A DNA stretch of 64,000 nucleotides from Schistocephalus solidus. Taxonomy: Eukaryota; Platyhelminthes; Cestoda; Diphyllobothriidea; Diphyllobothriidae. The notes under the pieces were generated by a model, which made no database searches, was not told the origin of the DNA, and saw only the letters and a list, made by a program, of their open reading frames with translations. Positions 3,950-60,760 of this stretch are shown here, piece by piece. Position numbers and translations under genes: made by a program. Position 1 is the first letter of the stretch; each line of letters begins with the position of its first letter. The stretch is from positions 215,146-279,145 of the forward strand of contig WEDG01002043.1 of the NCBI GenBank assembly GCA_017591395.1, in the 5' to 3' direction.

Positions 3950-4185
3950 AATAAAACTCTAACCTTATTCTTTAACCTAGCCCTTACCTAAATATTAAAT
4001 CTATGGTTAACCCCATCCCAAATCTTAACTCATGGCCCAATCCTGAACCTAACTCTTACTTTGAACTTAACTTAAAACCTAACCTTACGCACTCACATTA
4101 AGCCTTAACCTAATAACGTCTGAATTTGGCACTAAGCCACATATAATGTGGTTGGGTCCTACTTACATGTCAGACAACTACAAGG
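3950..4185. repeat. CCTAA/CTTAA-rich spacer, copy 1 of the higher-order repeat
   Basis: This block is rich in CCTAA, CTTAA and TTAACC words and contains the phrase CTATGGTTAACCCC at 4001. About 185 bp of it (4001-4185) recurs at 5389-5573 with few differences, an offset of 1388 bp. That offset equals four 305-bp monomers plus about 168 bp, so the spacer marks the start of each higher-order unit. The words resemble a degenerate telomeric repeat, but no perfect telomere tract is present. Confidence 0.75.
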
Positions 4186-4796
4186 GAGACCAGAATGGCC
4201 ATTTTTGGCTTATGTGTTATCATCAGCCATTTAATCATAAACCCTGGTGTGGATTAAATGGGGTTCAAACCCGCGACTTTTGGTTATACAGTCAACTGAT
4301 CTACCGTTAATCCCCGGCCTCAATGTTTAATGGGTTGCGATTGGGAATATAATAATAGAGTGTGAGTCACTGATCTACTTGTTAAACATGCATGTACCGT
4401 TGTCAACTGGAGTTTATAGAAGAGCCCTCGCAGGCTTTCGCGTAGCGAGGTGAAACATATGACGTTAAAGGAGAACCGAAAACTACAAACGAGACCAGAA
4501 TGGCCATTTCTGGCTAACAGGCCACCGTCAGCCAGTTATACCCAATCCTTAGTGTGAATTACCTGGGTTTCAAACCCACGGTATTTAGTTATTGAGTCGA
4601 GTGGTTTACCATTGAGCCACGGGCTGGTTGTAATGTTGGTTGCGATCGCAAATATGATGATAGTGTATGGTTCACTGATCTTCTTGTGGAACATGCATGT
4701 TCCGTTTTGCCCTGAAGCTTAAATAAGAGCCCTTACAGGCAGTTGCGAAGCGACGTGAAGCAAATGACGTTAAGGTAGAACCGAAAAACTATAATG

Positions 4797-4846
4797 AAGA
4801 CACGAATGGCCATTTCTGGCTTATATGCCGTCATCAGCCAGTCATT
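4797..4846 (-). ncRNA. type I hammerhead-ribozyme-like motif (monomer 3)
   Basis: On minus, CTGATGA (4837-4831) is followed after exactly 14 nt by GAAA (4816-4813). The intervening stem II contains GGC...GCC, with a C-A mismatch at its base. After the core comes the palindrome ATGGCCAT, which can form stem III, ideally between two neighbouring molecules. The predicted cleavage point is after U at 4805. Stem I pairing is weaker here (CGTGTC against GACTGG). Whether it cleaves is untested. Confidence 0.6.
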
Positions 4847-4867
4847 CCCAATCCCAAGTGTTGCACA

Positions 4868-4934
4868 CCTGGGATACGAACCCGCAACCTTTGGTATTTG
4901 AGTCGAACGTTCTACCATTGAGCCACGGGCTCGT
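4868..4934 (-). promoter_or_regulatory. tRNA-like head with pol III A and B boxes (monomer 3)
   Basis: This is the best preserved tRNA-like segment of the array. Read on minus it opens GAGCCCGTGGCTCAATGG, whose TGGCTCAATGG part fits the pol III A box. About 35 nt later comes GGTTCGTATCC, a near match to the B box GGTTCGANNCC. The D-arm (GCTC...GAAC) can partly pair, but the anticodon arm and acceptor do not close, so it is not a working tRNA. By analogy with tRNA-derived SINEs it could serve as an internal RNA polymerase III promoter for the downstream hammerhead-like region. The same segment recurs in all monomers with variable decay. Confidence 0.7.
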
Positions 4935-5102
4935 TGCCTTATCGGTTTTGATCGGGAATATTATGATAGTGTGTGGCTCACCGATCTGCTTAATGAACAT
5001 TTATGTTTCGTTGTGCCCTGGAACTCAGACTAGAGTTCTCCCAGACGGTTGCATAGCGAGATGTAGCATAGGTTGGTAATGTGAAACCGACAAAGACAAG
5101 GG

Positions 5103-5149
5103 AGACCGGAATGGCCATTTCTGGCTTATTAGCCATCATCAGCCAGACG
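5103..5149 (-). ncRNA. type I hammerhead-ribozyme-like motif, best copy (monomer 4)
   Basis: Both core boxes are intact on minus: CTGATGA (5142-5136), 14 nt, GAAA (5121-5118). Stem II is five base pairs (TGGCT with AGCCA) around the loop AATA. Stem III can be built from the palindrome ATGGCCAT (5118-5111), whose last U takes the conserved position before the cleavage base, U at 5110. Downstream CCGGTC (5109-5104) pairs with GTCTGG just 5' of CTGATGA in five of six positions, one a G-U wobble, giving stem I. All three helices fall where the type I hammerhead fold needs them. The unusual point is a two-nucleotide or absent stem III loop, which suggests dimers, as I recall for newt satellite 2. 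Confidence 0.7.
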
Positions 5150-5388
5150 AACCCAATCCCATCTGTGGATAACCTGCGTTTAAAACCCGCAACGTTCGGT
5201 TATTAAGTCAAACGCTCTCTCATTGAGCCAAGGGCTCATTGTTTTTTGGTTGCGATGAGGAATATGATGACTGTTTGGCTCACTGATATGCTTAAGGAAC
5301 ATGCACGTTTCTTTGTGCCCTGGAGCTCATAAAACAGACCTCGCAAATGGTTGCTTAACAACGTTCGGAATATGACGTTACGGTTAAC

Positions 5389-5573
5389 CTATGGTTAACC
5401 CCATCCCAAATCTTAACTCATGGCCCAATCCTGAACCTAACCCTAACTTTGAACTTTACTTAAAACCTTACCTTACGCAGTCACCTTAAGCCTTAACCTA
5501 ATAACGTCTGAATTTGGCACTAAGCCACATATAATGTGGTTGGGTCCTTCTTACATGCCAGACAACTACAAGG
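5389..5573. repeat. CCTAA-rich spacer, copy 2 of the higher-order repeat
   Basis: This is the second copy of the block at 4001-4185 and opens with the same CTATGGTTAACCCC phrase. It includes CCTAACCCTAAC at about 5436-5447, the closest approach to a flatworm telomere-type repeat in the window. It separates monomers 4 and 5 and breaks the 305-bp rhythm there. Confidence 0.8.
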
Positions 5574-5879
5574 GAGACAAAAATAATCATTTCTGGCTTA
5601 TATGCCATCATCAACCGGTTATTTTTAATTCCAGATCAGGATTTATCTGGGTTTCAAACACGCGCCTTCCGTTAATTGAGTCGAGTGCTCTACCATTGAG
5701 CCATAGGCTCGATATTTTGTCAGTTGCGATCGGAAATATGATGCAATCGTGCGGCTTGCCGATCTGCTTGAGGAACATGCATGTTTTTGTGCCTAGGAGA
5801 TCATATAAGAGCCCTTGCATGCAGTCTTGTAGCGACGTGAAGCATATGAAGTTCAAGTAGAAACGACAAAGACAAGGGA

Positions 5880-5926
5880 GACTGAATTGGCCATTTCTGG
5901 CTAATAAGCCTTCATCAGCCAGTCAT
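5880..5926 (-). ncRNA. hammerhead-ribozyme-like motif (monomer 6)
   Basis: CTGATGA (5918-5912) and GAAA (5897-5894) are both intact on minus with the same 14-nt spacing. The stem II inner part is GGCT...AGCC, with an A-A mismatch at the base. The stem III region is ATGGCCAA, so its palindrome is partly broken by an extra A. This copy supports the conservation of the core but is less likely to fold fully. Confidence 0.55.
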
Positions 5927-6489
5927 ACCCAATCCCAGGTGTTTATTACCTTGTTTTCATACCAATGACGTTTTGTTTTTGAGTTAAGTGCTCTCACATT
6001 GAACCACGAGCTCGTTATTTTGTTGGTTGCGATCGGAAATATGATGATAGTGCGTGACTCACTGATCTGTTTGAGGAACATGCATGTTCCGTTTTGCCCT
6101 GGAGTTCATTTATGAGCCCTCGTAGGATTTTGCTTAACGGCGTGAAGCATATGACGTGTAAGTAGAACCAACAAATAAAATGGAAAACAAAATTATAATT
6201 TATTGCTTAAATGCCATCATCAGCCAGTTATACCCAATCCCATGGGTGGACTTCATGGGTTTCCAACCCTTAGACTTTAGGTGATTGAATCGAACGCTCT
6301 ACCATTGAGCCACGGGTTCGTTGGTTTGTCGGTTACGACCGGGAATATGATGAAAGTGTGGCTTACCGATCTGCTTGAGGAAAATGCATGTTCTGTTGTG
6401 CCCAGGAGATCATATTAGAACCCTCTTAGGCGGTCGCGTAGCGACGTGAAGCATATTATTTTTCAGTAGAACCGACAAAGAGAAGGGAG

Positions 6490-6536
6490 ACTAAAATGGT
6501 CATTTCTGGCTTATAAGCCGTCATCAGCCAGTCTTA
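6490..6536 (-). ncRNA. hammerhead-ribozyme-like motif (monomer 8)
   Basis: CTGATGA (6527-6521) and GAAA (6506-6503) are intact on minus with the usual 14-nt spacing. Stem II is built on the palindrome GGCTTATAAGCC with a C-A mismatch next to the core. Stem III would use ATGACCAT, a palindrome with one mismatched centre. Monomers 1, 2, 5 and 7 have lost one of the two core boxes: box 2 in 1 and 7, and CTGATGA in 2 and 5. Confidence 0.55.
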
Positions 6537-6725
6537 CCAAATCCCAGGTGTGAATTACCTGGTTTTCAAACGCACGACTTTTGGATATTGAGTTTAGTGC
6601 TCTAGCATTGAGCTACGGGCTCGTTATTATGACGTTTGCGATCGGGAATATGATGAAAGTGTTTGGCTCACTGTTCTGCTTGAGGAAAATTCATGTTCCG
6701 TTGTGCGTTCGAGCTAATATTTTTT

Positions 6726-7159: not shown

Positions 7160-7837
7160 TTGCCAAAGTCCGGAAGAAGAAATAGTCAATGGATGCAAGG
7201 ACGCCTAAGTATAGTGGATAATCGGGAACTTCGGACACGAACGCCTTTATTTTCCCGTGTTTATTTGTGTAGTGTGTGGTGTGTAGGTGTACTTGTTAAG
7301 GGTAGCACCACACCGATAGCATTTTTTCGCTCCATTTGTCTCGTTCAGGTGGTGATTGCTTACTGGTACCCAACTCTCACCTGTGGCTTCTCGAAGTTGG
7401 GTTCTTCCCAGCGGCCAAACCCTGGGCAACTATCACGCCAGGTGAAGGTCTCCAGTGTAGTGTGTGCCTCCACACTCGGTATGCCCGACTCCCGAACTTC
7501 CCACCTCCCCCCTCTCAAAAAGTCCTACGGTGGGGGCGACAGCAACCCTGTAGGTAGCCCAGACTAACTCGGGTCGTTCTCCCACTAAAACAAATCTGTG
7601 ACCCATAGTGGAGTTCGGGAGCCGTCTGGGATGTCCGAGCTGCCCGATTTAGGGATAGCACTGCTTGCCTCCTCGTGGAGGAAGGGGCCAGAAAATGTTT
7701 TTTGAAAAAATGCTGGTTCTCACGTCTTCTGCAGCCGGCCGCGTTTCGCAGGTCGCAAACTACGCGGTCGTAAACCTCAAACAAACAACAATACCCCCTG
7801 TCCCCATCCCCCTCGCCATACTCTCCAGGCAGCTCGG
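7160..7837 (+). other. RTE-like LINE 5' untranslated region
   Basis: About 680 bp upstream of the endonuclease frame. The stretch from roughly 7320 to 7660 aligns with 58800-59215, sharing phrases such as CTTACTGGTAC, CCAGGTGAGGGT or its variant, and TCTACGGTGGG. Shared sequence at this position in two copies marks it as part of the element. Open frames here are GC-driven and carry no motif. Confidence 0.65.
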
Positions 7838-8600
7838 GTGAGTCCACTCACACTAGCAGCCTGGAATGTTCGCTCCCTTTTAGACAATCCTAGGAGCAAC
7901 CGGCCGGAACGGAGGATGGCACTAGTCGCTCAGGAACTGGTGCGATACAAGGTGGACATTGCTGCTCTCAGCGAAAAAAAATTCTCTGAGCAAGGTCAGC
8001 TGGATGAGGTTGGTGCCGGCTACACCTTCTTCTGGAGCGGCCGGCCAAAGGCAGAGCGACGCGACGCTGGTGTTGCCTTTGCCATCCGTAACGACATCGT
8101 TGGACGTCTGCCCTGTCTGCCACAGGGTATCGATGATCGCTTGATGAGCCTCCGCCTGCCTTTTCGGGGAGGCCAGTTCGCCACTATCATCAGCGCCTAC
8201 AGTGACGAGCTCTGATGCGGCGAAGGACAAATTATACGAGGACCTGCACGCCTTGCTGGCGACTGTACCGAATGAGGACGAGTTAATTGTCCTTGATGAA
8301 ATCAATGCCCGCAACGGGACGGACCACGCTGCCTGGCAGGAAGTGCTGGGTCCCCACGGTCTCGGTAGCTGCAACGATAACGGCCTCCTTCTTCTGCGCA
8401 CGTGTGCGGAACACCGTCTACTGCTGTCCAACACCTTCTTCCGCCTTCCGACGCGGGAGAAGGCCACGTGGATGCACCCTCGGTCGCGGCGCTGGCATCT
8501 GCTGGACTATGTTCTCGTCCGGAGTCGAGATCGACAGGACGTGCTGGTAACCAAGGCGATCCGCGATGCCGATTGGTTGGACAGATCACCGCCTCGTCAT
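7838..8600 (+). pseudogene. broken AP-endonuclease domain of RTE-like LINE
   Basis: The frame opens M-S-P-L-T-L-A-A-W-N-V-R-S-L, the usual N-terminal beta strand of LINE endonucleases. It continues through A-A-L-S-E (metal-binding Glu) and the Y-T-F-F-W-S-G-R segment. A frameshift near 8200 moves the frame, and another near 8570 moves it again to reach the conserved T-D-H-R-L-V end. Where the family has G-D-F-N, this copy reads D-E-I-N (about 8290-8310), so a catalytic Asp is altered. In an active element this domain nicks target DNA to prime reverse transcription. The break points are seen directly; the role is family knowledge. Confidence 0.85.
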
Positions 8601-8701
8601 CTCTCAGATGAGGCTCCAACTGCAACCCCGACAAAGGCCCCAAGGTAAGAGGCCGCCACCCTCGATGTACTTGGACAGGCACCGTCGACACCAGGACTGG
8701 T

Positions 8702-10155
8702 TTGACGACAATGACGCTGACATCAGCAACTTACTTGCGGAGAAGAAATAGACTACACAAAGCCTACATGGACGTTCGGACTGACGCTACCAAAGCAGCC
8801 TTTTTCAGATGCCGGCGCCTTGTACAACAACGGCTGCGGGAGATGCAGGATGCCTGGATGATCCGAAAGGCTGAGGAAATCCAGGGGTATGCGGACCGCA
8901 ATGAAATGAAAAGCCATCAAGGCCATCTACGGCCCGTGTGTCAAGGTGTCCGCACCGCTGCTTAGCTCTGACGGCACAACACTGCTGACAGACAAATCGC
9001 AAATTCTGACGCGCTTGGCCGAGCACTTCAGAAGTGTCCTTAATTGCTTATCAGCCATCTCCGATGCTGCCGTTGACCGGCTCCCTCAAGTTGACACGAA
9101 CAATGACCCTGATTGGTTGCCTTCCCTCCCAGAAACCATCCGGGCCGTGCAGCAGATTTCCAACGGTAAAGCACCGGGATCCGACGCAATTCCACCGGAC
9201 GCTTACAAGCACGGTGGGTCTCGGCTAATGGCAGAACTCAAAACACTCTTCCAGGAGATATGGCGTCCATCTCTACCTACTAAAGGGGAACCGGCAACTC
9301 TGTGATAATCACAGAGGCATCTCGTTGCTCAACAATTCTAGGAAGGTCTTCGCCCGTATCCTTCTCAATCGTCTGAACGGTCACCTAGAGCAGGGTCTGC
9401 TCCCGGAAAGCCAATGTGGCTTCCGCCGACACCGCGGAACAACTGATATGATCTTTTCCGCCGTCCAACACACTAGAAGTGCCAGGAGATGTGAACGCAC
9501 ATATAAACTACCTTTTTGGATTTTACGAAAGCCTATGACATGGTGAATCATGACGGACTGTTGAAAGTCATGCAGAAATGTGGTTGTCCTGAGCGGTTCA
9601 CGCACATGGTATGTCAGTTTCATGACGGGATGACGGCGCGCGTCACTGACAATGGGACGGAATCCGAAGCATTCGCAGTGACCAACGGAGTGAAGCAGGG
9701 CTGCGTACTGGCCCCCACCCTCTTTAGTCTCATGTTCTTGGCTATGCTGATGGACGCCTACCGTGATGAGCAGCCTGGTATCCGCATCGCTTACAGAACT
9801 GCCGGGCACCTTCACAACATTCGGCGTATGCAGGCTCTAATGCGCGTGTCTACGACTACAGTCCATGACTTGCTCTTCGCGGATGACTGCGCCCTTAACA
9901 CTGTGACGGAGGAGGACATGCAAAGGAGCATGGACCTCTTCGCCAAAGGCGGCGCCGATTTCGGATTAACAATCAGTACAGCCATAACGGTTGTCATGCA
10001 CCAGCCAACACTCAGCGCGGAATGCAATGTTCCTCGAATGAATTTCAACGGTGCTAAACTTAAAAGGTGGAAACCTTCGCATACCTAGGAAGCACGAGGT
10101 CACGCAACACGAGAATCGATGACGAGGTTGCCCAACGGATTTCCAAAGCTAGTCA
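8702..10155 (+). pseudogene. broken reverse transcriptase of RTE-like LINE
   Basis: Segments in different frames follow the order of a LINE polymerase: a basic linker (about 8740-8915), the K-A-P-G-S-D-A-I-P motif (about 9165-9200), N-H-R-G-I-S-L-L (about 9307), C-G-F-R-R-H-R-G-T-T-D (about 9415), D-F-T-K-A-Y-D (about 9517), G-V-K-Q-G-C-V-L-A-P (about 9690), and the catalytic F-A-D-D at 9876-9887. Frameshifts fall near 8745, 8915, 9290 and 9510. The catalytic box itself is intact. The thumb and C-terminal parts are missing because the element stops at 10155. Full family members continue into a zinc-finger tail, seen elsewhere in the window. Confidence 0.88.
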
Positions 10156-28963: not shown

Positions 28964-30130
28964 GCACAAAGGAACAAAGTTAAACGGCTTAGCCTCAGGA
29001 CACGACAGGATTTTGAAAAAGACCTGTTTAACCGGGCAGTAGAAACTCCGAAGTTATTCTACAATAACATTAGAAGGAGCACGCATAGCAAGGACCCAGT
29101 TCACTTTCTAAGGACTAGCGAAATCCTAGAGATAAGTGAGGATGGAGCAAAAGCGGAACACCTATCATAATTCTTTAAATCTATCTTGACAAATGAAAGC
29201 GCATTTAATCCTCCCGACTACGACTTAGATGAGGGTCCAACAATAGAGGCTGTATCTTTCGACGAGGCAAATGTTCATTAAGTGTTTTTGGCTCTGAATG
29301 AGTCTTAATCACCGGGCCCAGATGATATACCGCCAAAGTTACTAAAGGGACTCGCTGCGGAACTGGCAAAACCGTTGTCCATGCCTTTTCAAACCATGTT
29401 AGAAGCCGGCACGTTACCTGCTGATTGGAAATCTGCACGAATCATACCACAATATAAAGGTGGTAGCAAGGTCTCCACAAATAATTACAGGCCAATTAGC
29501 CTTTACTCGATCTGCTGCAAACTCATGGAAAAAATAATAAAGCGAGAGCTATTGCGCTTCTTAGAGCAGCAAAAATTATTATCTGACGCGCAGAATGGAT
29601 TTCGAAGTGGCAGATCTTGCCTAACGAACTTGCTCTTTTCTTTGGAACATAAGACGTGAGAAGTTGATGAAGGAAATGCGCTGCACGAAGTCTACGTTGA
29701 CTTTAAGAAGGCATTTGATAGTGTCCCTCTTCAGCGACTCCTACACAAACTCAACCGAACAGGCATTAGGGGTTATCTCCTCAGATGGGTCAAAAGCTTC
29801 TTATTTGGCCGCTCTCAAACCGTCCATGTCGGTAACCAGCAGTCGGCGGAGGTTGCGGTTGAAAGTGGAGTTCCCCAGGTCTCCGTTCTTGGCCCTTATC
29901 TGTTCATTTTGTACGTAAACGACTGCATCAATGAAATGGATTGTGATGTCGCCCTGTTTGCGGATGATATTAAGCTATGTAGGGTCATCAGAACTGCAGC
30001 TGACGTAAAGCATTTGCAGGAAAACCTAAACCGACTTCAACAATGGTTAAAGGACTGGCTTTTGCCTTTCAATAAGAAAAAATGCCCTATTCTACGATGC
30101 AGTAGAACTAGCACTCCGCACCTCATGGAT
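28964..30130 (+). pseudogene. LINE family C reverse transcriptase, 5' segment (copy 1, interrupted)
   Basis: One reading frame, open from 28964 with only a few stops (about 29168, 29279, 29307 and 29657), carries a polymerase linker and P-K-L-F-Y-N-N-I-R-R. It continues through S-P-G-P-D-D-I-P (about 29310), Y-R-P-I-S-L (about 29490), N-G-F-R-S-G-R-S-C (about 29593), D-F-K-K-A-F-D-S-V-P (about 29700), G-V-P-Q-V-S-V-L-G-P (about 29868) and the intact F-A-D-D-I-K box (about 29958). The endonuclease is missing, so the copy is 5'-truncated. At 30130 the frame stops after a Met-Asp codon pair and resumes at 35715, with family-B sequence between. Confidence 0.85.
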
Positions 30131-30352
30131 AACGTGAAAGACTGTCTCAATGACCTAGATTGTGCAGTTGACATGTTTGCAGATGACATTAAAATATGGA
30201 CTTAAGTCAGCTCCACTGATGACGCAAAATGGATACAATCGACTATCGACAAACTAAGTGCCTGGTTGGCTAGGTGGCTTCTTAAGTTTAATGTATCCAA
30301 GTGCGTGATCCTACACCTAAGTGCTGGTCAAAAAGTATCTCTGAGATGCCAG
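30131..30352 (+). pseudogene. LINE-B polymerase fragment at the left end of the insertion
   Basis: Begins with D-C-L-N-D-L-D-C and the F-A-D-D-I-K-I-W box (about 30177-30200), then A-W-L-A-R-W-L-L-K-F-N. It corresponds to 32620-32832 of the main family-B copy, about 2475 bp downstream. It ends abruptly in CCAGTAC, and ORF1 sequence of family B starts at 30353. It may be a separate truncated insertion or one end of a tandem duplication. Confidence 0.7.
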
Positions 30353-30760
30353 TACACCGTACAAAAAGCTTTCCGACTAGGCAAAACAGACCCCAGCCAC
30401 GACATGAGAATATCCCCAAGGCCTCTTAAAATTATTTTAGAAAATGAAACCCAGGCAGCACTTCTCTCAGAAGGAAAAAGGACCTTACGGTAATCGCACA
30501 AAAAAGTGTTTTTTAAGCCGGACTACGAGCCGAGTGAACGGCTGAAAATGAGGGAACTGCGGAAAGAATTGATGGAGAGAGTTGGCAGAGGAGAGAAACG
30601 GCTGAAAAACAAAGACGGTCAAATAGTGCAGATAAATGTGTCCTTCCTGTGGCTTAAACCTGTAACAATGAAGGCTGGGTCTCCCCGACGAATCGATCAT
30701 TGAAATTTATCTCCGAAAATGTACAAAGCCTGTTCAAAAAGTTGGACGAACTTAGAAACG
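30353..30760 (+). pseudogene. LINE-B ORF1 C-terminal part (copy 2)
   Basis: Reads K-A-F-R-L-G-K (about 30367), R-P-L-K-I-I-L (about 30421), then V-F-F-K-P-D-Y-E-P-S-E-R-L-K-M-R (about 30507) and a basic tail. Copy 1 at 21257-21950 carries the same order. A stop separates the two parts at about 30490. This is the nucleic-acid-binding ORF1 type of CR1/L2 elements. The N-terminal half is absent. Confidence 0.7.
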
Positions 30761-31470
30761 TTGTTGACTAAATTAAACGAGACGTTTTTGCTGTTACTGA
30801 AACGTGGCTTACTGCAAAAATAACTGATTCCGGAATATCACTCAGAGGATATAAGCACTTCAGGAGAGACAGACCAAGTTGAGGAGGAGGAGTCATCGTT
30901 TATGTCACTAGCTGACATATATATTCCATTACGCGATGGGGACTTCTTAAGCATTACTGTATCTGCTAAGTATTCCAGACCACTGACGATATCGGTTGTG
31001 TACCGTTCACCTTATTAGAATTCCGATGATGATCTCATTCTCATAACGGAACTCTTCAAAGTCAGCGAGAACAAAGATGTCCTCATTGTTGGGGATTTAA
31101 ACGCTCCTGATATTGACTGGAAAATCTGGACTGCGCAGGGAATGCCATATAACTTTAACCACAAACTTCTTCAATGGGCAACAGACAAACTTCTCTCTCA
31201 GTTCGTCACCTTTGGAACATGGACGAGAGAAGGACAGCAGTCAAACTGTCTTGACCTCATTTTTACCCGAGATGAGGAAAATGTGCTAGACCTACAGGAT
31301 CAACAACTATTAGGGTCAAGTGATCACATAACGCTGTGCTTCGAGTACATCCTGTTTTCAAAACCAAATTTACACGATACTTGGGTAAGAAATCATTTGG
31401 AAGGGGGACTACTCACTTATGAGAAGACAACTGTCAGAGATATCCTGGGAAACAGAACAATATGGTGAAA
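30700..31470 (+). pseudogene. LINE-B endonuclease (copy 2)
   Basis: Boxes in order: N-V-Q-S-L-F-K-K-L-D-E-L (about 30717), A-V-T-E-T-W-L (about 30791), R-D-R-P-S (about 30867), V-Y-R-S-P-Y (about 31000), V-G-D-L-N-A-P-D-I-D-W (about 31088), Q-S-N-C-L-D (about 31240) and G-S-S-D-H-I-T-L (about 31314). Most catalytic residues survive, but the G-D-F-N box reads G-D-L-N and several stops and shifts occur. Confidence 0.8.
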
Positions 31471-32852: not shown

Positions 32853-33460
32853 GTCAACTGCGAATTTGATGCTCTCAGAGCACTGTAAGAAAGCAGTCCA
32901 GAAGGCAACATGTAAACTACATTGAATCAGACGTGCGTTTAAAATATTCCCTCCTGATCCCTCCGGAAACGTCTATGGCGTCTTTGTGAGACCGCATTTA
33001 GATAACGGAATACCAGCCTGGACACCATGGGGGAAGAAAGATGTTGATGTCCTCGAACAGGTGCAACGGAGAGCAACGAAGATGGTTGACGGTCTTAAGA
33101 CTTTACCGTACCAAGACAGATTGAAAAAGCTTGACTTAATTCCTCTTTCCTACAGGCACTTACGGTGTAGCCTGCTCTGGACATTCTGGATTATCCGAGG
33201 CCATGATTCCTGCCTGAGGTCGGAGGATTTCTTCGACTTTGCCTGCACAACTCATCTGCGTGGTCATTCTTACATGGTTAATAGCGAACGCACGCGATTA
33301 AACCTCAGAAAGTTTGTTTCAGCCAACGAGTGGTACGACCTTGCAACTCGTTACCGAGCGAGACGGTTACCTCTGGCAGCATTACTGATTTTAAAAGAAG
33401 GCTTGATGGCATTTTATTTGACACTTGACGACTTTCACAAAATGATTTCTTAAAACCAGC
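32853..33460 (+). pseudogene. LINE-B C-terminal domain, tandem copy 1
   Basis: F-V-R-P-H-L (about 32985) leads into D-V-L-E-Q-V-Q-R-R-A-T-K-M-V (about 33043), L-P-Y-Q-D-R-L-K-K-L-D-L-I-P-L-S-Y-R and R-G-H-D-S-C-L-R, the usual C-terminal block of CR1/L2 polymerases. A one-base deletion near 33313, relative to copy 2, changes the frame before the end. Upstream of about 33050 it differs clearly from copies 2 and 3; downstream it is almost identical to copy 2. Confidence 0.85.
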
Positions 33461-34712
33461 CTTTTAAAATCTTTCGGGCTCTACTTTTCTTCCACAATTT
33501 TTCGCCTATGGCTTTGAAAACGCATTTGAAGTTATGTTATGCTTTGACTCATACATTTTTAAATGTATACCATTTTATATTGACTCTACACATGCAATGA
33601 TAACTTTACATTAATAGGGTCATCAAGGGCAATGCCTTTAACCTTTCAAAATATTCAATATATAAACAAAGATCTGGGTATGTGGACAACTGCGAATTCA
33701 TGCCCTCAGAACACTGTAAAAAAGCAGTCCAGAAGGCAACATGTAAACTACATTGGATCAGACTTGCGTTTAAAATATTTCCCCCTGATCTCTTCGGAAA
33801 AGTCATGGGCGTCTTTGTGAGACCGCATTAAGATTACGGAATACCAGCCTGGAAACCATGGATGAAGAAAGATGTTGAACTCCTCGAACAGGTGCAACGG
33901 AGAGCAACGAAGATGGTTGACGGTCTTAAGACTTTACCGTACCAAGACAGATTGAAAAAGCTTGACTTAATTCCTCTTTCCTACAGGCACTTACGGTGTA
34001 GCCTGCTCTGGACATTCTGGATTATCCGAGGCCATGATTCCTGCCTGAGGTCGGAGGATTTCTTCGACTTTGCCTGCACAACTCATCTGCGTGGTCATTC
34101 TTACATGGTTAATAGCGAACGCACGCGATTAAACCTCAGAAAGTTTTGTTTCAGCCAACGAGTGGTACGACCTTGCAACTCGTTACCGAGCGAGACGGTT
34201 ACCTCTGGCAGCATTACTGATTTTAAAAGAAGGCTTGATGGCATTTTATTTGACACTTGATGACTTTCACAAAATGATTTCTTAAAACCAGCCTTTTAAA
34301 ATCTTTCGGGCTCTACTTTTCTTCCACAATTTTTCGCCTATGGCTTTGAAAACGCATTTGAAGTTATGTTATGCTTTGACTCATACATTTTTAAATGTAT
34401 ACCATTTTATATTGACTCTACACATGCAATGATAACTTTACATTAATAGGGTCATCAAGGGCAATGCCTTTAACCTTTCAAAATATTCAATATATAAACA
34501 AAGATCTGGGTATGTGGACAACTGCGAATTCATGCCCTCAGAACACTGTAAAAAAGCAGTCCAGAAGGCAACATGTAAACTACATTGGATCAGACTTGCG
34601 TTTAAAATATTTCCCCCTGATCTCTTCGGAAAAGTCTAGGGCGTCTTTGTGAGACCGCATTAAGATTACGGAATACCAGCCTGGAAACCATGGATGAAGA
34701 AAGATGTTGAAC
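33050..34712 (+). repeat. ~831-bp tandem duplication within LINE-B 3' ends
   Basis: The landmark GTGCAACGGAGAG occurs at 33061, 33892 and 34724, spacing 831 and 832 bp. From 33050 to about 33690 the first unit matches the second with only about two differences by eye. From about 33453 to 33930 the second matches the third almost perfectly. The middle copy therefore has the upstream part of copy 3 and the downstream part of copy 1, as expected from unequal crossing-over. The near identity is far higher than between other element copies here. An assembly artefact is the alternative. Confidence 0.85.
33690..34290 (+). pseudogene. LINE-B C-terminal domain, tandem copy 2 (hybrid)
   Basis: Opens at about 33690 with GCGAATTCATGCC and a decayed frame, then an open frame 33862-34260 with L-L-E-Q-V-Q-R-R-A-T-K-M-V through to the protein end (R-R-L-D-G-I-L-F-D-T). 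It is the longest intact version of this C-terminal block. Its 3' untranslated sequence follows to about 34490 and ends with GGGTCATCAAGGGCAATGCC. Confidence 0.85.
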
Positions 34713-35100
34713 TCCTCGAACAGGTGCAACGGAGAGCAACGAAGATGGTTGACGGTCTTAAGATTTTACCGTACCAAGACAGATTGAAAAAGCTTGACTT
34801 AATTCCTCTTTCCTACAGGCATTTACGTTGTAGCCTGCTCTGGACATTCCGGATTATCCGGGGCCATGATTTCTCCCTTAGATTGGAGGATTTATTCGAC
34901 TTTGCCTGCACAACTTATCTGCGTGGTCAACCTTACAAGGTTAATAGCGAACGCACGCGGTTGAACCTCAGAAAGTTTTGTTTTAGCCAACGAGTGGTTC
35001 GACCTTGGAACTCGTTACCAAGCGAGACGGTTACCTCTAACAGCGTTCCTGAATATAAAAGAAGGTTTGATGGCATTATATTTGACAAAAGATGACTTTC
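34520..35100 (+). pseudogene. LINE-B C-terminal domain, tandem copy 3
   Basis: Upstream half almost identical to copy 2. From about 34764 on it diverges (for instance R-I-I-R-G-H-D-F-S-L-R-L-E-D-L-F). Open frame 34694-35095 ends with F-D-G-I-I-F-D-K-R. It represents the older, second family-B 3' end that took part in the unequal exchange. Confidence 0.85.
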
Positions 35101-35714
35101 ACAAAATGATTACATAAAACACGCCTTTTAAAATCTTTCGGGCTCTAATTTTCTTCCACAATGTTTCGCCTATGGCTGTGAAAATGCATTTGAAGGCACT
35201 TACGGTGAAGCCTGCTCTGGACTTTCCACATTATCCGGATCCATGATCCTCCCTGAGATCGGAGGATTTCTTCAAGTTTGCCTGCACAACTCATCTGCGT
35301 GTTCAACCCTACAAGGTCAATAGCGAAAGCACGCGATTGAACCTCAGGAAGTTTTTTTTAGCCAACGAGTGGTATGAGCTTAAAACGCCTTTCCAAGTTA
35401 GACGGTTACCTCTGACAGCATTTCTGATTTTACAATAAGACTTGATGACATAATATTTGACAAAATACGACTCTCGCAACATGATAATTTAAAACCAGCC
35501 TTTAAAAATATTTCGGTTTCTAATTTTCTTCCACAATGTTTCGCCTATAGATGTGAACACGCATTTGAAGTAATGTTATGCTTTGAATCAAACATTTTTA
35601 AATATACACCACTTTTATACTGACTGTACACATGGAATGATAGTTTTATATCAATAGGGTCATCAAGGGCAATGTCTGTAACCCTTCAAAATATGCATAT
35701 ATACTTCGAAAATA
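35101..35714 (+). pseudogene. LINE-B 3' end, truncated fourth copy
   Basis: At about 35194 the 3' untranslated text of copy 3 jumps to GCACTTACGGTGAAGCC, the middle of the C-terminal coding block. This runs, with stops, to about 35440. A 3' untranslated region with TCAAGGGCAATG follows to about 35714. The family-C frame resumes at 35715, so this is the right end of the family-B insertion. Confidence 0.75.
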
Positions 35715-43730: not shown

Positions 43731-44222
43731 TACTTGTGGTGCAGACTAGGGTCAAAACTGCTAAGAACCAAGGTATACAAAATAAATTAACGCTTAGTGG
43801 GGAATGGTGTCTAAACTACAAACGAAGAAAGGACGGTAAAAACTTTATAGGATTGTTAGAATGTAGACTCACGAAAAACGCAGCTTCTCGATAGCAAGTG
43901 TTGTTTAGGATTGTAATGCACTTTAAACTAGATCTAGGAAGCTTTGCATCAAGGACGAAGAGCAGAGTAAGGAGTTCAATTAAGACGGCATTCGGAAGAA
44001 TGCAATCGAGAAATGAAGATCGATCGTTGCAATTGACTGCAAGTAATTGAGAGATATAAGTTCAATCAAAGGAACAGCGGTGACATGCAGGAACGAAAAC
44101 AGAAGACGTCCAGCATGCGAGTTGGAGCTGGCTGTTGTATTTTTAGCACAGTAAAACAAGCGCACATAAAGATTCAGGTGAACAAAAAAGATAAAAACAT
44201 GTAAATTGTAGAAATACCTACA
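43731..44222 (-). repeat. 3' LTR of the CsRn1-like element
   Basis: Read on minus it starts TGTAGGTATTTC at 44222, right after the purine-rich run CGCTTTGGTGGGGAAGTTG. It ends near 43731. The whole length pairs with 48411-48889, with shared text such as ATCGATCGTTGCAATTGAC and AAACTGCTAAGAACCAA. The low-coordinate edge is uncertain by several bases. Confidence 0.85.
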
Positions 44223-44241
44223 CAACTTCCCCACCAAAGCG
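44223..44241 (-). other. polypurine tract next to the 3' LTR
   Basis: On minus, the purine-rich run GGTGGGGAAG sits directly before the LTR start TGTAGG. This is the usual primer site for plus-strand DNA synthesis in LTR elements. Confidence 0.65.
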
Positions 44242-45499
44242 TTTGTTGAAAAAATATGCGCGATGAAAAAAGTCAACAAAATTAACGACAAAGTCCTTAT
44301 GATTGGCAGGAAAATGGATATGCCTACCCAAACGAGAGGAAATGTTTTGTGGTGAAAAAGGAGTAAAAAAACGTGTGGGTGGGGAAGTCTTATGTAAAGG
44401 TTGAGTGGAAGAGACCGACTTAGGTGGAATGGGTGGTGATAGTGCGGAGGAATTGGATGGAGCAATGAGCGGTGTGATGCACTCAAGATAAACTGGCTTG
44501 AGTCTGTCGATGGACACTTTGTCAGTCTTATCAGCCTTCTGTATGACGTAATACTTGTCCATCTATTTAAGTTCCTGGTACTGGCCATCATTAGGGAAAA
44601 AAGGGGCTTGCAAACTGCATCGTGCCGGACGAGGACGAATGGCGCCGAATTGAGGTCGTCTTGCACAAAAACGCGTTTGAAGTTCAGGCGAGTGGGCGTT
44701 GGACGCAGCCGAGCCATGCTCTGTTTGAATTGTTGAATGAAAGCATTCGACAAGCTTGTTTCTACGGTGGAAGATTGCACAAATTCGCCGGGCAGGTGGA
44801 GAGGTGTACAGTATACAAGTTCTGCCATATTACATTGAATGTCCTCTTTGACAGCTGATTGAATACCCAAAAGGACGAGGGGTAAGTTGTCACTCCACGC
44901 AGTTGTGCCTGAGTGAGACATCAGTACTGTCTTTAGTTGATGATGCAGGCGTTCCAAGAAGCCATTAGAAGCAGGGTGATATGCCATTGTCGTGATGTGC
45001 GCACACCCGAGATGTTAAGTGAACTCGCGGAAGAGACTAGATTGAAACTGGCTTCTGCAGTCAATGTTAATGGTGGCTGGCACACCAAAATTGGATATCC
45101 GGTGATGCAAGAAGACCATGCAATATTTTCTGCTGAGGTATCCGATATCGGAATTGCAATTGGCCATTGTGTGAAACGGTTGACTGTTGTGAAAATATGT
45201 GTGTGTCAACGTGAAGGTGGTAACGGCCCAACTAAGTCTAAATGAACGTGATGGAATTGAACGTCCGGAACAGCAAATTTGCTTGATGGGGAAAAGGTAT
45301 TGCAATGCACTTTGTTTTTCTGGCACGCTAAACATTGCCTTGTTAATAGTTCATCTTTGGCCACACAAAGCGAACAGCAATTAGTTTGTGACCAGCGCGG
45401 ATGCCGGGATGTGACAGAGTGAAAATGATGAAAAAATACCATACGCTAGGATAATGGAACAAAAGGTTGGGGAGTGCCTGTGGACCAGTCACATAAAAT
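44223..45499 (-). pseudogene. integrase of the CsRn1-like element
   Basis: The zinc-binding part carries F-H-H-F-H-S-V-T-S with C-L-A-C-Q-K-N-K (about 45330-45300). H-L-D-L-V-G-P-L-P-P-S follows (first catalytic Asp, about 45230-45210). A frameshift precedes N-I-D-C-R-S-Q-F-Q (second Asp, about 45060). H-P-A-S-N-G-F-L-E-R-L-H-H-Q-L-K holds the catalytic Glu (about 44980-44935). The frame stays open to 43980, across the C-terminal tail and into the LTR. The tail frame includes V-S-I-D-R-L-K-P-V-Y (about 44515), usual in this group. Confidence 0.8.
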
Positions 45500-45927
45500 C
45501 GTTCCCGGTGATGCTGGAAGTGGTGCATCTCGAAGCTGCAGAGTACTAGATGTACGTAGATCAGCAATAAACTCGTCTTTTAGTTGGAGGTCTTTAAGCT
45601 TCGCCAGGTCAAAGTTGGATGACAAGGTGTTGATGTCCGGTCTCGGTAATGCATCATCAACGACATTATCGCTGCCTCAGACCAAGGGGATATCTGCAGT
45701 AAACTTCGAAATATAGTCAAGGTGACGCACTTCTCTTGGCGAGTGCCTATGTGGTTTGGCCTTGATGGCATAATTGAGAGGTTTCTGATTGGTATGAATC
45801 CGAAAATCTCTTCCCTTTTATAGGTGGCGACAATGACGGATAGGCAGGTATACAGCCATGAGGTCGTGAGAGAAAGAACTGTAGCGAGTCTGAGCTGGTT
45901 GTAGCTTCTGTGAAAAAAATACAATGG
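45500..45927 (-). pseudogene. RNase H and tether of the CsRn1-like element
   Basis: After G-V-H-Q-Q-V-N-N-Q-L (45928) a frame change leads into L-S-V-I-V-A-T-Y-K, then W-S-E-A-A near 45680. This is the RNase H-to-integrase tether as seen in CsRn1-type elements. At least two frameshifts occur. The catalytic Asp of the last RNase H box could not be placed with confidence. Confidence 0.65.
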
Positions 45928-46830
45928 CTACAACTGGTTATTCACCTGTTGATGTACGCCTGCGCCGACAGCATTGTTAGAAGCGTCAGTTGTCAAAATC
46001 AACTGCGTAGAAGCGTCAAAGTTGAGGTGGTGCAGCATATTCGCATCAGCGAGGGCCTTCTTGGCTGCATCAAAAGCTGAGTGCGCTGCCAGTGTTAGTT
46101 CAATCGGTTTGGCTTTCGACTTCAAAAGATAAGTCAAGGTCGCCAGAATAGCCACACAGCTGGGAATGAAACGTCGGTAGTAATTGATAAGTTTAATGAA
46201 TCGTCGCAGTTGTATGAGGGTCTTGGGAGACGGAAAAGATAAATCGCTTTGCAACTTCTCTGAAAGTGGTGTGATTCCATGCTGATCGACGTGATGACCA
46301 AGGAAACCAAGAGAATGAACGCCAAAAAAGCCTGTGTTGACGTTTACTTGCAAACCGTGTTGCTGGAAATGATCGAACACTTGGCTCAAGTGCGATGCAT
46401 GTTCCGTTGGTGAAGAACTTGCTACGAGTATGTCGTAAATATAGACAAAGGTCAACGAAAGACCGTTCAAGACCTCATCAATAAACCGCTGGAAGGATTA
46501 GGTGGCGTTACACAAACTGAAAGGCATGCGAAGAAATTCGAACAAGCCAAAAGGAGTTGTGATGGTGGTCTTGGGGATGTCATCCTTAGCGACTGGTATC
46601 TGATGATATGCTCTCATGAGGTCTATCTTGGAGAAAATAGTTTTTGTAGCGGACATGTGAGAAAAATCATGAATATGAGGAATACGGTTCTGGTCGTGGA
46701 TGATTGTTCTATTAAAAGCACGATAATCACCACATGGCCTCCAATCATCGGCCGATTTCTTGGGGACCATGTGCAGGGGAGAGGCCCATGGACTGGAAGA
46801 AGGGCGGATAATCCCCAAATTTCGCATGTG
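45928..46830 (-). pseudogene. reverse transcriptase of the CsRn1-like element, catalytic Asp lost
   Basis: Boxes on minus: [35 protein letters not shown] and [12 protein letters not shown] stop at about 46498-46500 replaces a codon before S-F-Q-R-F. The catalytic box reads V-Y-I-Y-D-I-L-V, so the first Asp of Y-x-D-D is now Tyr (a GAC to TAC type change). The connection region and L-T-T-D-A-S-N-N-A-V-G-A-G, the start of RNase H with its Asp, follow. Confidence 0.88.
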
Positions 46831-60200: not shown

Positions 60201-60587
60201 TACTCTCGACATGCGTGTCACCCTTTTAGCTTTACCTGCGACGATCCGCTTTGCACGCCAGTCTTCACAGCAATGTAAATCAGGTTATTCGCAAACACAT
60301 CCCTTAAATGAGCTTTTTAACGAATGTTACCGTACTGCATTGCACCATTCTTAGTGCTATTCGTAAAGTTTGGTCAGTTACTGATTAAGTGCCAGTTCTT
60401 AGTAGATATTAATAACTGCCAAACAATCATGGTCAACCATGTCACGCTTAGAAGTCACCTGCGTCCTTTGAAGTAAATTGCCAAAACCTTCATTTTCCTG
60501 CATCACTTAACCTCGGAAAACCTCGCCTACTTAATAACCAAAGAATTCAGTTATCTTTTCGTAGCAAGCAACCAAGCGACAAGACCA

Positions 60588-60760
60588 CGAGTTCGTGGCT
60601 CCGTAGTTTGAGCGTTTAAATTTAAATCAACATGTTCGAGACCCACGTGGTTCGATGCGTGTGGCTGGGTATGGCCGACTGATGATGGCTACTAATCTAG
60701 AAATGGGCATTTTATGATGCGTTCTCTTTCGTTGCCTATGATACGTGTAACTAGTGGGCT
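60588..60760 (+). mobile_element. dispersed tRNA-SINE of the array family, with hammerhead-like core
   Basis: On plus, GTGGCTCCGTAGTTTGAGCG (A-box region) and TGTTCGAGACCC (B box) form a tRNA-like head at about 60592-60652. GGCTGGGTATGGCCGACTGATG and CTAGAAATGGGCATTTT follow, the same order as the minus strand of the 305-bp monomers (GGATTGGGTATGACTGG, CTGATGA, GAAATGGCCATT). The copy shows that the family also moves or moved as single elements. Tail position is uncertain. Confidence 0.7.
60670..60715 (+). ncRNA. hammerhead-ribozyme-like motif in the dispersed SINE
   Basis: CTGATGA (60679-60685) and GAAA (60700-60703) keep the 14-nt spacing of the array copies. Stem II pairing is reduced (TGGC against TCTA, about two pairs), stem III would use ATGGGCAT, and stem I pairing is weak. 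The core boxes survive, but the helices are probably too weak for activity. Confidence 0.45.

Follow-up and report, generated by a model that had tools for sequence, protein, structure and literature searches.

What kind of element would place a transfer RNA (tRNA)-like promoter and a hammerhead-ribozyme-like core side by side in one short tandem repeat? The question is raised by an array of monomers of about 305 bp on the minus strand of the window, by which we mean the whole 64,000-nucleotide stretch of Schistocephalus solidus contig WEDG01002043.1 that was analysed. The reading we favour, to which we give a probability of roughly 0.6, is that the array belongs, in a decayed state, to a family of short non-coding retroelements whose units consist of a tRNA-derived head, a 60-nt type I hammerhead with a weak helix III, and a variable remainder, and whose working would involve RNA polymerase III (pol III) transcription, self-cleavage and a borrowed reverse transcriptase.

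Two young families with a common block

The evidence for this reading comes largely from younger relatives of the array. The genome (603,688,359 bases in 8019 contigs) holds at least 195 matches to one monomer used as query (40 of 6291 first-look candidates were scored), and 20 fetched loci provided 270 full monomers. Having been chosen by similarity to a single monomer, these loci represent one young subfamily, family A, which forms 305-bp arrays with a consensus of 305 nt. Set against the standard consensus for pol III promoters, family A has TGGCTCAATGG as a canonical A box and GGTTCGAATCC as a canonical B box. Rfam recognises its head as a tRNA twice in three young loci, with 31.9 and 30.8 bits where the gathering score is 29; at two other places the score is 28.8 bits, below that threshold. 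Both core boxes are present in the consensus of the young copies, as the original prediction of a hammerhead at this locus had anticipated, and 220 of the 270 monomers are identical across the 60-nt hammerhead region. A second family, B, was reached through locus L018 and forms 309-bp arrays with a different tRNA-like head, whose B box fits the consensus less well than that of family A; at least 155 matches to it were found (36 of 4850 candidates scored). TTTT is absent from both consensuses, GC content is 48% in A and 55% in B (repeat finder), and, folded as circles, A and B exceed shuffled sequences in stability by 5.7 and 4.7 s.d., respectively. Searching prokaryotic and viral contig collections for the exact pattern gave no match.

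The two families are 69% identical overall. Over the hammerhead block their identity is 96, 100, 100 and 96% in four overlapping 24-nt windows, falling to 88% in the window that follows and to 33–67% beyond it. The 60-nt block common to both contains CTGATGA, 14 nt, GAAA and ATGGCCAT, and the two differences that lie within the predicted fold, A18G and G58A, leave stem I paired. Such local identity could also be explained by recent gene conversion, or by the core domain of a short interspersed nuclear element (SINE) that has some other task.

In family A the block reads GACUGG-CUGAUGA-CGGC-UAAUAA-GCCA-GAAA-UGGCCAUU/CCGGUC, where the slash marks the predicted cleavage site. Its fold has six of six pairs in stem I with an internal UAU loop beyond, a helix II of three pairs plus a C.A mismatch, and a helix III in which two base pairs are closed by a palindromic GGCC tetraloop. 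In both consensuses the three helices, weak by energy, are placed as in a type I hammerhead open at helix I, and the catalytic core (CUGANGA...GAAA, A15.1-U16.1 and H17) is intact. The whole core is present in 36 of 50 aligned copies, comprising 39 dispersed copies, the eight window monomers, a further copy in the window (copy x), one young A and one young B. In its sequence, the block agrees with a type I hammerhead whose helix III is two base pairs long and for which cleavage is predicted.

Two lines of evidence argue that this fit is more than a coincidence. A descriptor of the fold, written after the sequence had been seen, matched 24 times in 3.741 billion Markov bases, which corresponds to 3.9e-6 for each 305-nt unit when both strands are counted. 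An initial version of it, stricter in its loop (2 nt closed by three pairs), gave seven matches in 470 million random bases; the second version additionally allows the 2-bp helix with a tetraloop. In the 50-copy alignment, which was collected by similarity search with copy x and so favours conserved centres, the 11 catalytic columns are 97.1% conserved, compared with 86.7% for the other columns of 17–58 (permutation p 0.00085) and 89.5% within columns 23–55 (p 0.0061). The internal UAU is 92–96% conserved and the last base of loop II is A in all 50 copies; these might form a loop I–loop II tertiary contact motif, although the A is also paired in a competing hairpin.

That hairpin is the centre of a different account, in which the array is an ordinary tRNA-SINE satellite, the block is either a long hairpin (CTGGCT...AGCCAG plus flanking pairs) or a SINE core for reverse-transcriptase recognition, and the likeness to a hammerhead is due to chance. 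The hairpin has the lowest free energy of any fold of the block, is picked by RNAalifold for nine copies (no structure is returned for 50), has its pairs formed in 88.7% of cells, slightly above shuffles (10 and 15 of 500), compared with 83.6% for the hammerhead, and is consistent with the lack of any Rfam hammerhead match. We nevertheless consider this account unlikely. It leaves G5, G8, A9, A13, A14 and U16.1 unpaired, yet these catalytic columns are 97.7% conserved, compared with 84.9% for other columns unpaired in the hairpin (p 0.0023; 0.0089 within columns 23–55), while its own paired, non-catalytic columns are barely more conserved than the unpaired ones (87.7 compared with 84.9%). It also fails to account for a fit expected so rarely by chance.

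Several results weigh against the hammerhead reading. Two checks proposed with the original prediction, a match to the Rfam hammerhead covariance models and compensatory changes in the stems, both came out negative. No monomer in the window or the young loci matched the Rfam models at any threshold tried, and a genome-wide search gave no candidate over the cut-off, the best reaching 24.4 bits where 34 are required (73 of 91,055 candidates scored). Covariation in the hammerhead stems was no better than in shuffles, either for nine copies (372 of 500 shuffles paired as well) or for 50 (241 of 500), and the 83.6% of cells with hammerhead pairs is likewise not above shuffles. An isolated 64-mer favours the hairpin by about 11 kcal/mol; in the whole unit, an enforced hammerhead lies 4.6–6.9 kcal/mol above the best fold in A and 6.1–8.4 kcal/mol above it in B, the upper figures being those with the catalytic core kept open, and tertiary contacts lying outside these energies. 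The pairing probability of stem I in the whole unit is 0.36–0.84 in A and 0.05–0.08 in B. When the 39 dispersed copies are taken alone the conservation tests become weaker (p 0.0022 and 0.015; for columns unpaired in the hairpin, 0.031 and 0.087). The base of helix II is C.A in both young families, with 19 of 50 copies having C.A and 28 of 50 U-A, and the GC content of 48–55% exceeds the value of below 45–50% given for metazoan retrozymes. Some of this weakness has a parallel in the axolotl hammerhead HHR_Amex2, which has a U.U mismatch at the helix II base, shows 22% cleavage per hour alone, and is efficient as a dimer (PMC7229834). Since a hammerhead with a like mismatch cleaves well as a dimer, the weak features seen here fit a dimer-acting hammerhead.

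It is also conceivable that an ancestral hammerhead worked and that the present families, in which it is inactive or nearly so, now spread through nothing more than transcription from their pol III promoter and reverse transcription by a borrowed enzyme. The C.A at the helix II base of young A and B, where many older copies have U-A, and, in B, a predicted fold whose stem I is weak or missing would suit such a loss, which we judge quite improbable given that every catalytic position is intact in both young consensuses, that the region is unchanged among most young A monomers, and that HHR_Amex2, mismatched at the same place, still cleaves (PMC7229834). The hammerhead reading is thus partly supported at the level of sequence, being kept alive by the common block of the second family, the conservation of catalytic positions, and array ends that resemble those left by retrotransposition.

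Two side observations concern the shape of the units and their surroundings. In the A unit, the segment CTTTGTCGGT that follows the hammerhead complements ACCGACAAAG, situated upstream of the tRNA-like head, and complementary segments lie at positions 13–26 and about 157–175 of the A and B units; a long RNA stem may thereby enclose the head and the hammerhead in the modelled RNA. At L024, a 2.8-unit array lies between 18-nt inverted repeats of 94% identity (1332–1349 and 2234–2251), possibly inside a small inverted-repeat element.

Array ends and (TA)n tracts

Array ends were mapped on the unit with position 0 as the first base after the cleavage site. A tract of (TA)5 or longer lies within 40 nt of 27 of the 34 3' ends and of 4 of the 31 5' ends (p 6.6e-8); restricting the latter to the 17 outer 5' ends, by our own sorting, gives 4 of 17 (p 2e-4 compared with the 3' ends). 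The 34 3' ends are not all independent, because at five loci (L025, L060, L062, L063 and L069) two arrays lie 3' to 3' across a single (TA)n tract. The 3' ends cluster at B43 (12), B152 (7) and A151 (4), and the 5' ends are scattered across the unit. Each unit contains exactly two ATAT/TATA spots, at 38–43 and 148–152, together about 8% of its length, and 27 of the 34 3' ends lie at most 4 nt from one of them; aligners run on into matching TA letters, which makes the exact junction within a TA run imprecise. The exact junction GTTATTCTGCM(TA)8A is found in 272 copies genome-wide, with none for the reversed control. None of the 34 3' ends falls within 5 nt of the predicted cleavage site.

In non-LTR (long terminal repeat) elements, target-primed reverse transcription yields 3' ends at a fixed point, tailed by a simple repeat, and 5' ends at varied points. 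Here, the short insertions span 1.65–6.6 units and would need a template longer than one unit, either a circle or an uncleaved multimer, while the position of the 3' ends away from the cleavage site speaks against cleaved linear monomers as template. From these ends we infer that (TA)n primed the reverse transcription of an RNA that was either circular or multimeric. In the working that goes with our favoured reading, pol III would transcribe tandem units from the A and B boxes of the tRNA-derived head, and the hammerhead would cut the multimer after AUU into RNAs one unit (305 or 309 nt) long. Cutting would probably be best with two copies joined in helix III by way of the AUGGCCAU palindrome. 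The unit RNA would then be closed into a circle by a host RNA ligase, and a (TA)n 3' end would anneal to it at one of the two UAUA spots and prime a borrowed reverse transcriptase; by going more than once round, the enzyme would produce a short tandem array for insertion. We tentatively suggest, as a possibility short of probable, that pol III drives families A and B as retrozymes and that their circular RNA is copied round and round from the UAUA spots, where a DNA 3' end made of (TA)n serves as primer. If this is true, such priming would account for tandem insertions that are short, for 3' ends fixed at two places and for the scatter of the 5' ends, as well as for head-to-head arrays with (TA)n at both outer sides, and would constitute the first sequence evidence for the priming of a metazoan retrozyme.

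Two observations sit less comfortably with (TA)n priming from a circle. The two 3' ends of the window array, at about unit position 20 and outside the 34, have no (TA)n, and variants in eight short arrays divide into 6 common to all units, 4 common to some and 63 that are unit-specific. With so few variants common to all units, an origin from a single circle is not established, and circle and uncleaved multimer are the two templates that remain, undistinguished by these variants. Among the 39 dispersed copies, a long (TA)n lies near unit position 35–43 in five and most others are without one.

The (TA)n-linked ends might instead come from recombination or breakage of DNA at fragile (TA)n tracts, with no reverse transcription involved. 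Tracts of this kind are unstable, the arrays facing each other over a single tract at five loci would suit such an origin, and inspection by eye of two loci, L021 and L024, showed no target-site duplication. Breakage would, however, not be expected to split 3' from 5' ends as sharply as is observed, or to start, in both families, from one and the same pair of spots and run outward every time, and we find this account rather doubtful.

The facing 3'-to-3' pairs often combine one array of family A with one of family B. In addition, inverted arrays meet head to head, 5' end to 5' end, at L018, L020, L025, L068, L071 and L076, an arrangement that twin priming would give.

The array in the window

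By profile search, eight units of about 305 bp occupy the minus strand at 4166–6720 (Table 1), spaced 302–306 throughout except for one interval of 476 that results from an insert of about 170 nt. The original prediction of eight minus-strand monomers with A and B boxes holds for the array, its strand, its period and the A boxes, which are recognisable; the B boxes in the window are degraded, those of young copies elsewhere in the genome being perfect. Window monomers are 65.9–79.9% identical to one another and 79.3–86.5% identical to their own consensus. CTGATGA-N14-GAAA is exact in four of the eight and in copy x on the plus strand (60679–60703), so that the seven places originally counted for this core reduce to five, or extend to nine (eight monomers and copy x) if up to 10 substitutions in the block are allowed. 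Each of the remaining four monomers has a change in a core box and monomer 3 has lost the U of the cleavage site, from which we conclude that the array is old and mostly dead as a ribozyme. ATGGCCAT is unaltered in four of the eight. Two monomers match the full hammerhead descriptor, one of them being that in which all three stems had originally been drawn, and its fold places cleavage at the site then proposed. Copy x matches the monomer profile at 47.4 bits (nhmmer, E 2.6e-14) and is followed by a family-B-like tail, as seen in alignment with families A and B.

Table 1. Positions of the monomers and associated features in the window
Feature	Position	Strand	Remarks
Monomer 1	6465–6720	minus	hammerhead-like block about 6549–6482; core boxes exact; matches full descriptor
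Monomer 2	6161–6431	minus	core broken, GAAA to TAAA; stem III palindrome ATTATAAT
Monomer 3	5855–6126	minus	core boxes exact; U of cleavage triplet to A
Monomer 4	5553–5822	minus	CTGATGA to TTGATGA
Monomer 5 (monomer 4 of the original prediction)	5080–5347	minus	core boxes exact; predicted cleavage between 5110 and 5109; matches full descriptor
Monomer 6	4777–5046	minus	core boxes exact; two stem I pairs broken
tRNA-like head of monomer 6	4877–4932	minus	Rfam tRNA 23.1 bits, under gathering score 29
Monomer 7	4469–4740	minus	CTGATGA to CTGACGG
Monomer 8	4166–4435	minus	GAAA to AAAA
TTAGG-like insert/tail interrupting the array after monomer 4	5386–5563 (approximate)	minus	
Second copy of TTAGG-like tail, after monomer 8	3998–4175 (approximate)	minus	
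Ninth, diverged dispersed copy (copy x)	60573–60729	plus	tRNA-like head; hammerhead-like block 60660–60727

The two TTAGG-like tails, each of about 170 nt, sit at the same monomer position and are about 94% identical by eye, compared with just 71% for the monomers 4 and 8 that host them. Their sequence suggests a young event or conversion inside an old array. We abandoned the idea that this tail marks the element's 3' terminus, since it lacks (TA)n and its age is far below that of the monomers.

Elsewhere in the window, tandem repeats of 832/831 and 375 bp lie over an open frame at 32866–35651, for which no Pfam match was found. Remnants of reverse-transcriptase elements occupy 43980–46497, 29660–31468 and 7706–10088, with RNase H/reverse transcriptase on the minus strand and pieces of reverse transcriptase and endonuclease on the plus strand; reverse transcriptase pieces of both LINE-like (long interspersed nuclear element) and LTR-like kinds are present.

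Comparison with known hammerhead elements

The closest parallels in architecture are Sm-alpha and Sj-alpha of Schistosoma, which are likewise non-coding, both tandem and dispersed, and combine tRNA-derived sequence with a type I hammerhead. The original comparison with Sm-alpha, made for a SINE-like satellite with a tRNA-like pol III promoter and a hammerhead-like core, is supported by the sequences described here. The S. solidus families differ in having two heads of other sequence, a 2-bp helix III with a palindromic tetraloop, and cleavage predicted after AUU, whereas Sm-alpha has another cleavage triplet and a more stable helix III. Many Sm-alpha copies score as tRNA-Gln-TTG (PMC2770079). 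By analogy, the families may work much as Sm-alpha and the metazoan retrozymes do, a likeness of architecture rather than of demonstrated descent. Among the literature matches listed, which covered few subscription papers, there was no tRNA-headed hammerhead satellite outside schistosomes.

In its details, the block also resembles hammerheads of other animals. The newt and axolotl hammerheads HHR_Amex1 and HHR_Amex2 have a weak helix III with a palindromic tetraloop, and Amex2 has a mismatch at the base of helix II, according to PMC7229834; the weak helix III and the tetraloop recur here, as does a helix II base mismatch like that of Amex2. The amphibian satellites belong to another host and have another sequence, and their units are not presented there as tRNA-derived. 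The hammerheads of Penelope-like elements are minimal type I hammerheads acting as dimers (PMC7761336). The block would be of the same minimal type I kind, in units that here encode no protein.

If the hammerhead is accepted, tandem units with a type I hammerhead are also common ground with the non-LTR retrozymes of cnidarians, mussels and axolotl. In PMC7229834 and PMC7761336, metazoan retrozymes are described as having units of about 150–450 bp, multimeric insertions and a circle predicted to be highly self-paired; section 9 of the latter, a 2020 review, reports no evident promoter and no motif that reveals the priming of reverse transcription or the partner retroelement. In contrast, the S. 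solidus families have pol III boxes and 3' ends that point to (TA)n priming. A candidate internal pol III promoter, a higher GC content and the (TA)n junctions set these families apart from the retrozymes described so far. How animal retrozymes begin transcription, and how their circles turn into DNA, is an open problem, and the occurrence of a candidate promoter and a recurrent 3'-junction signature in one family makes both steps testable in a single system.

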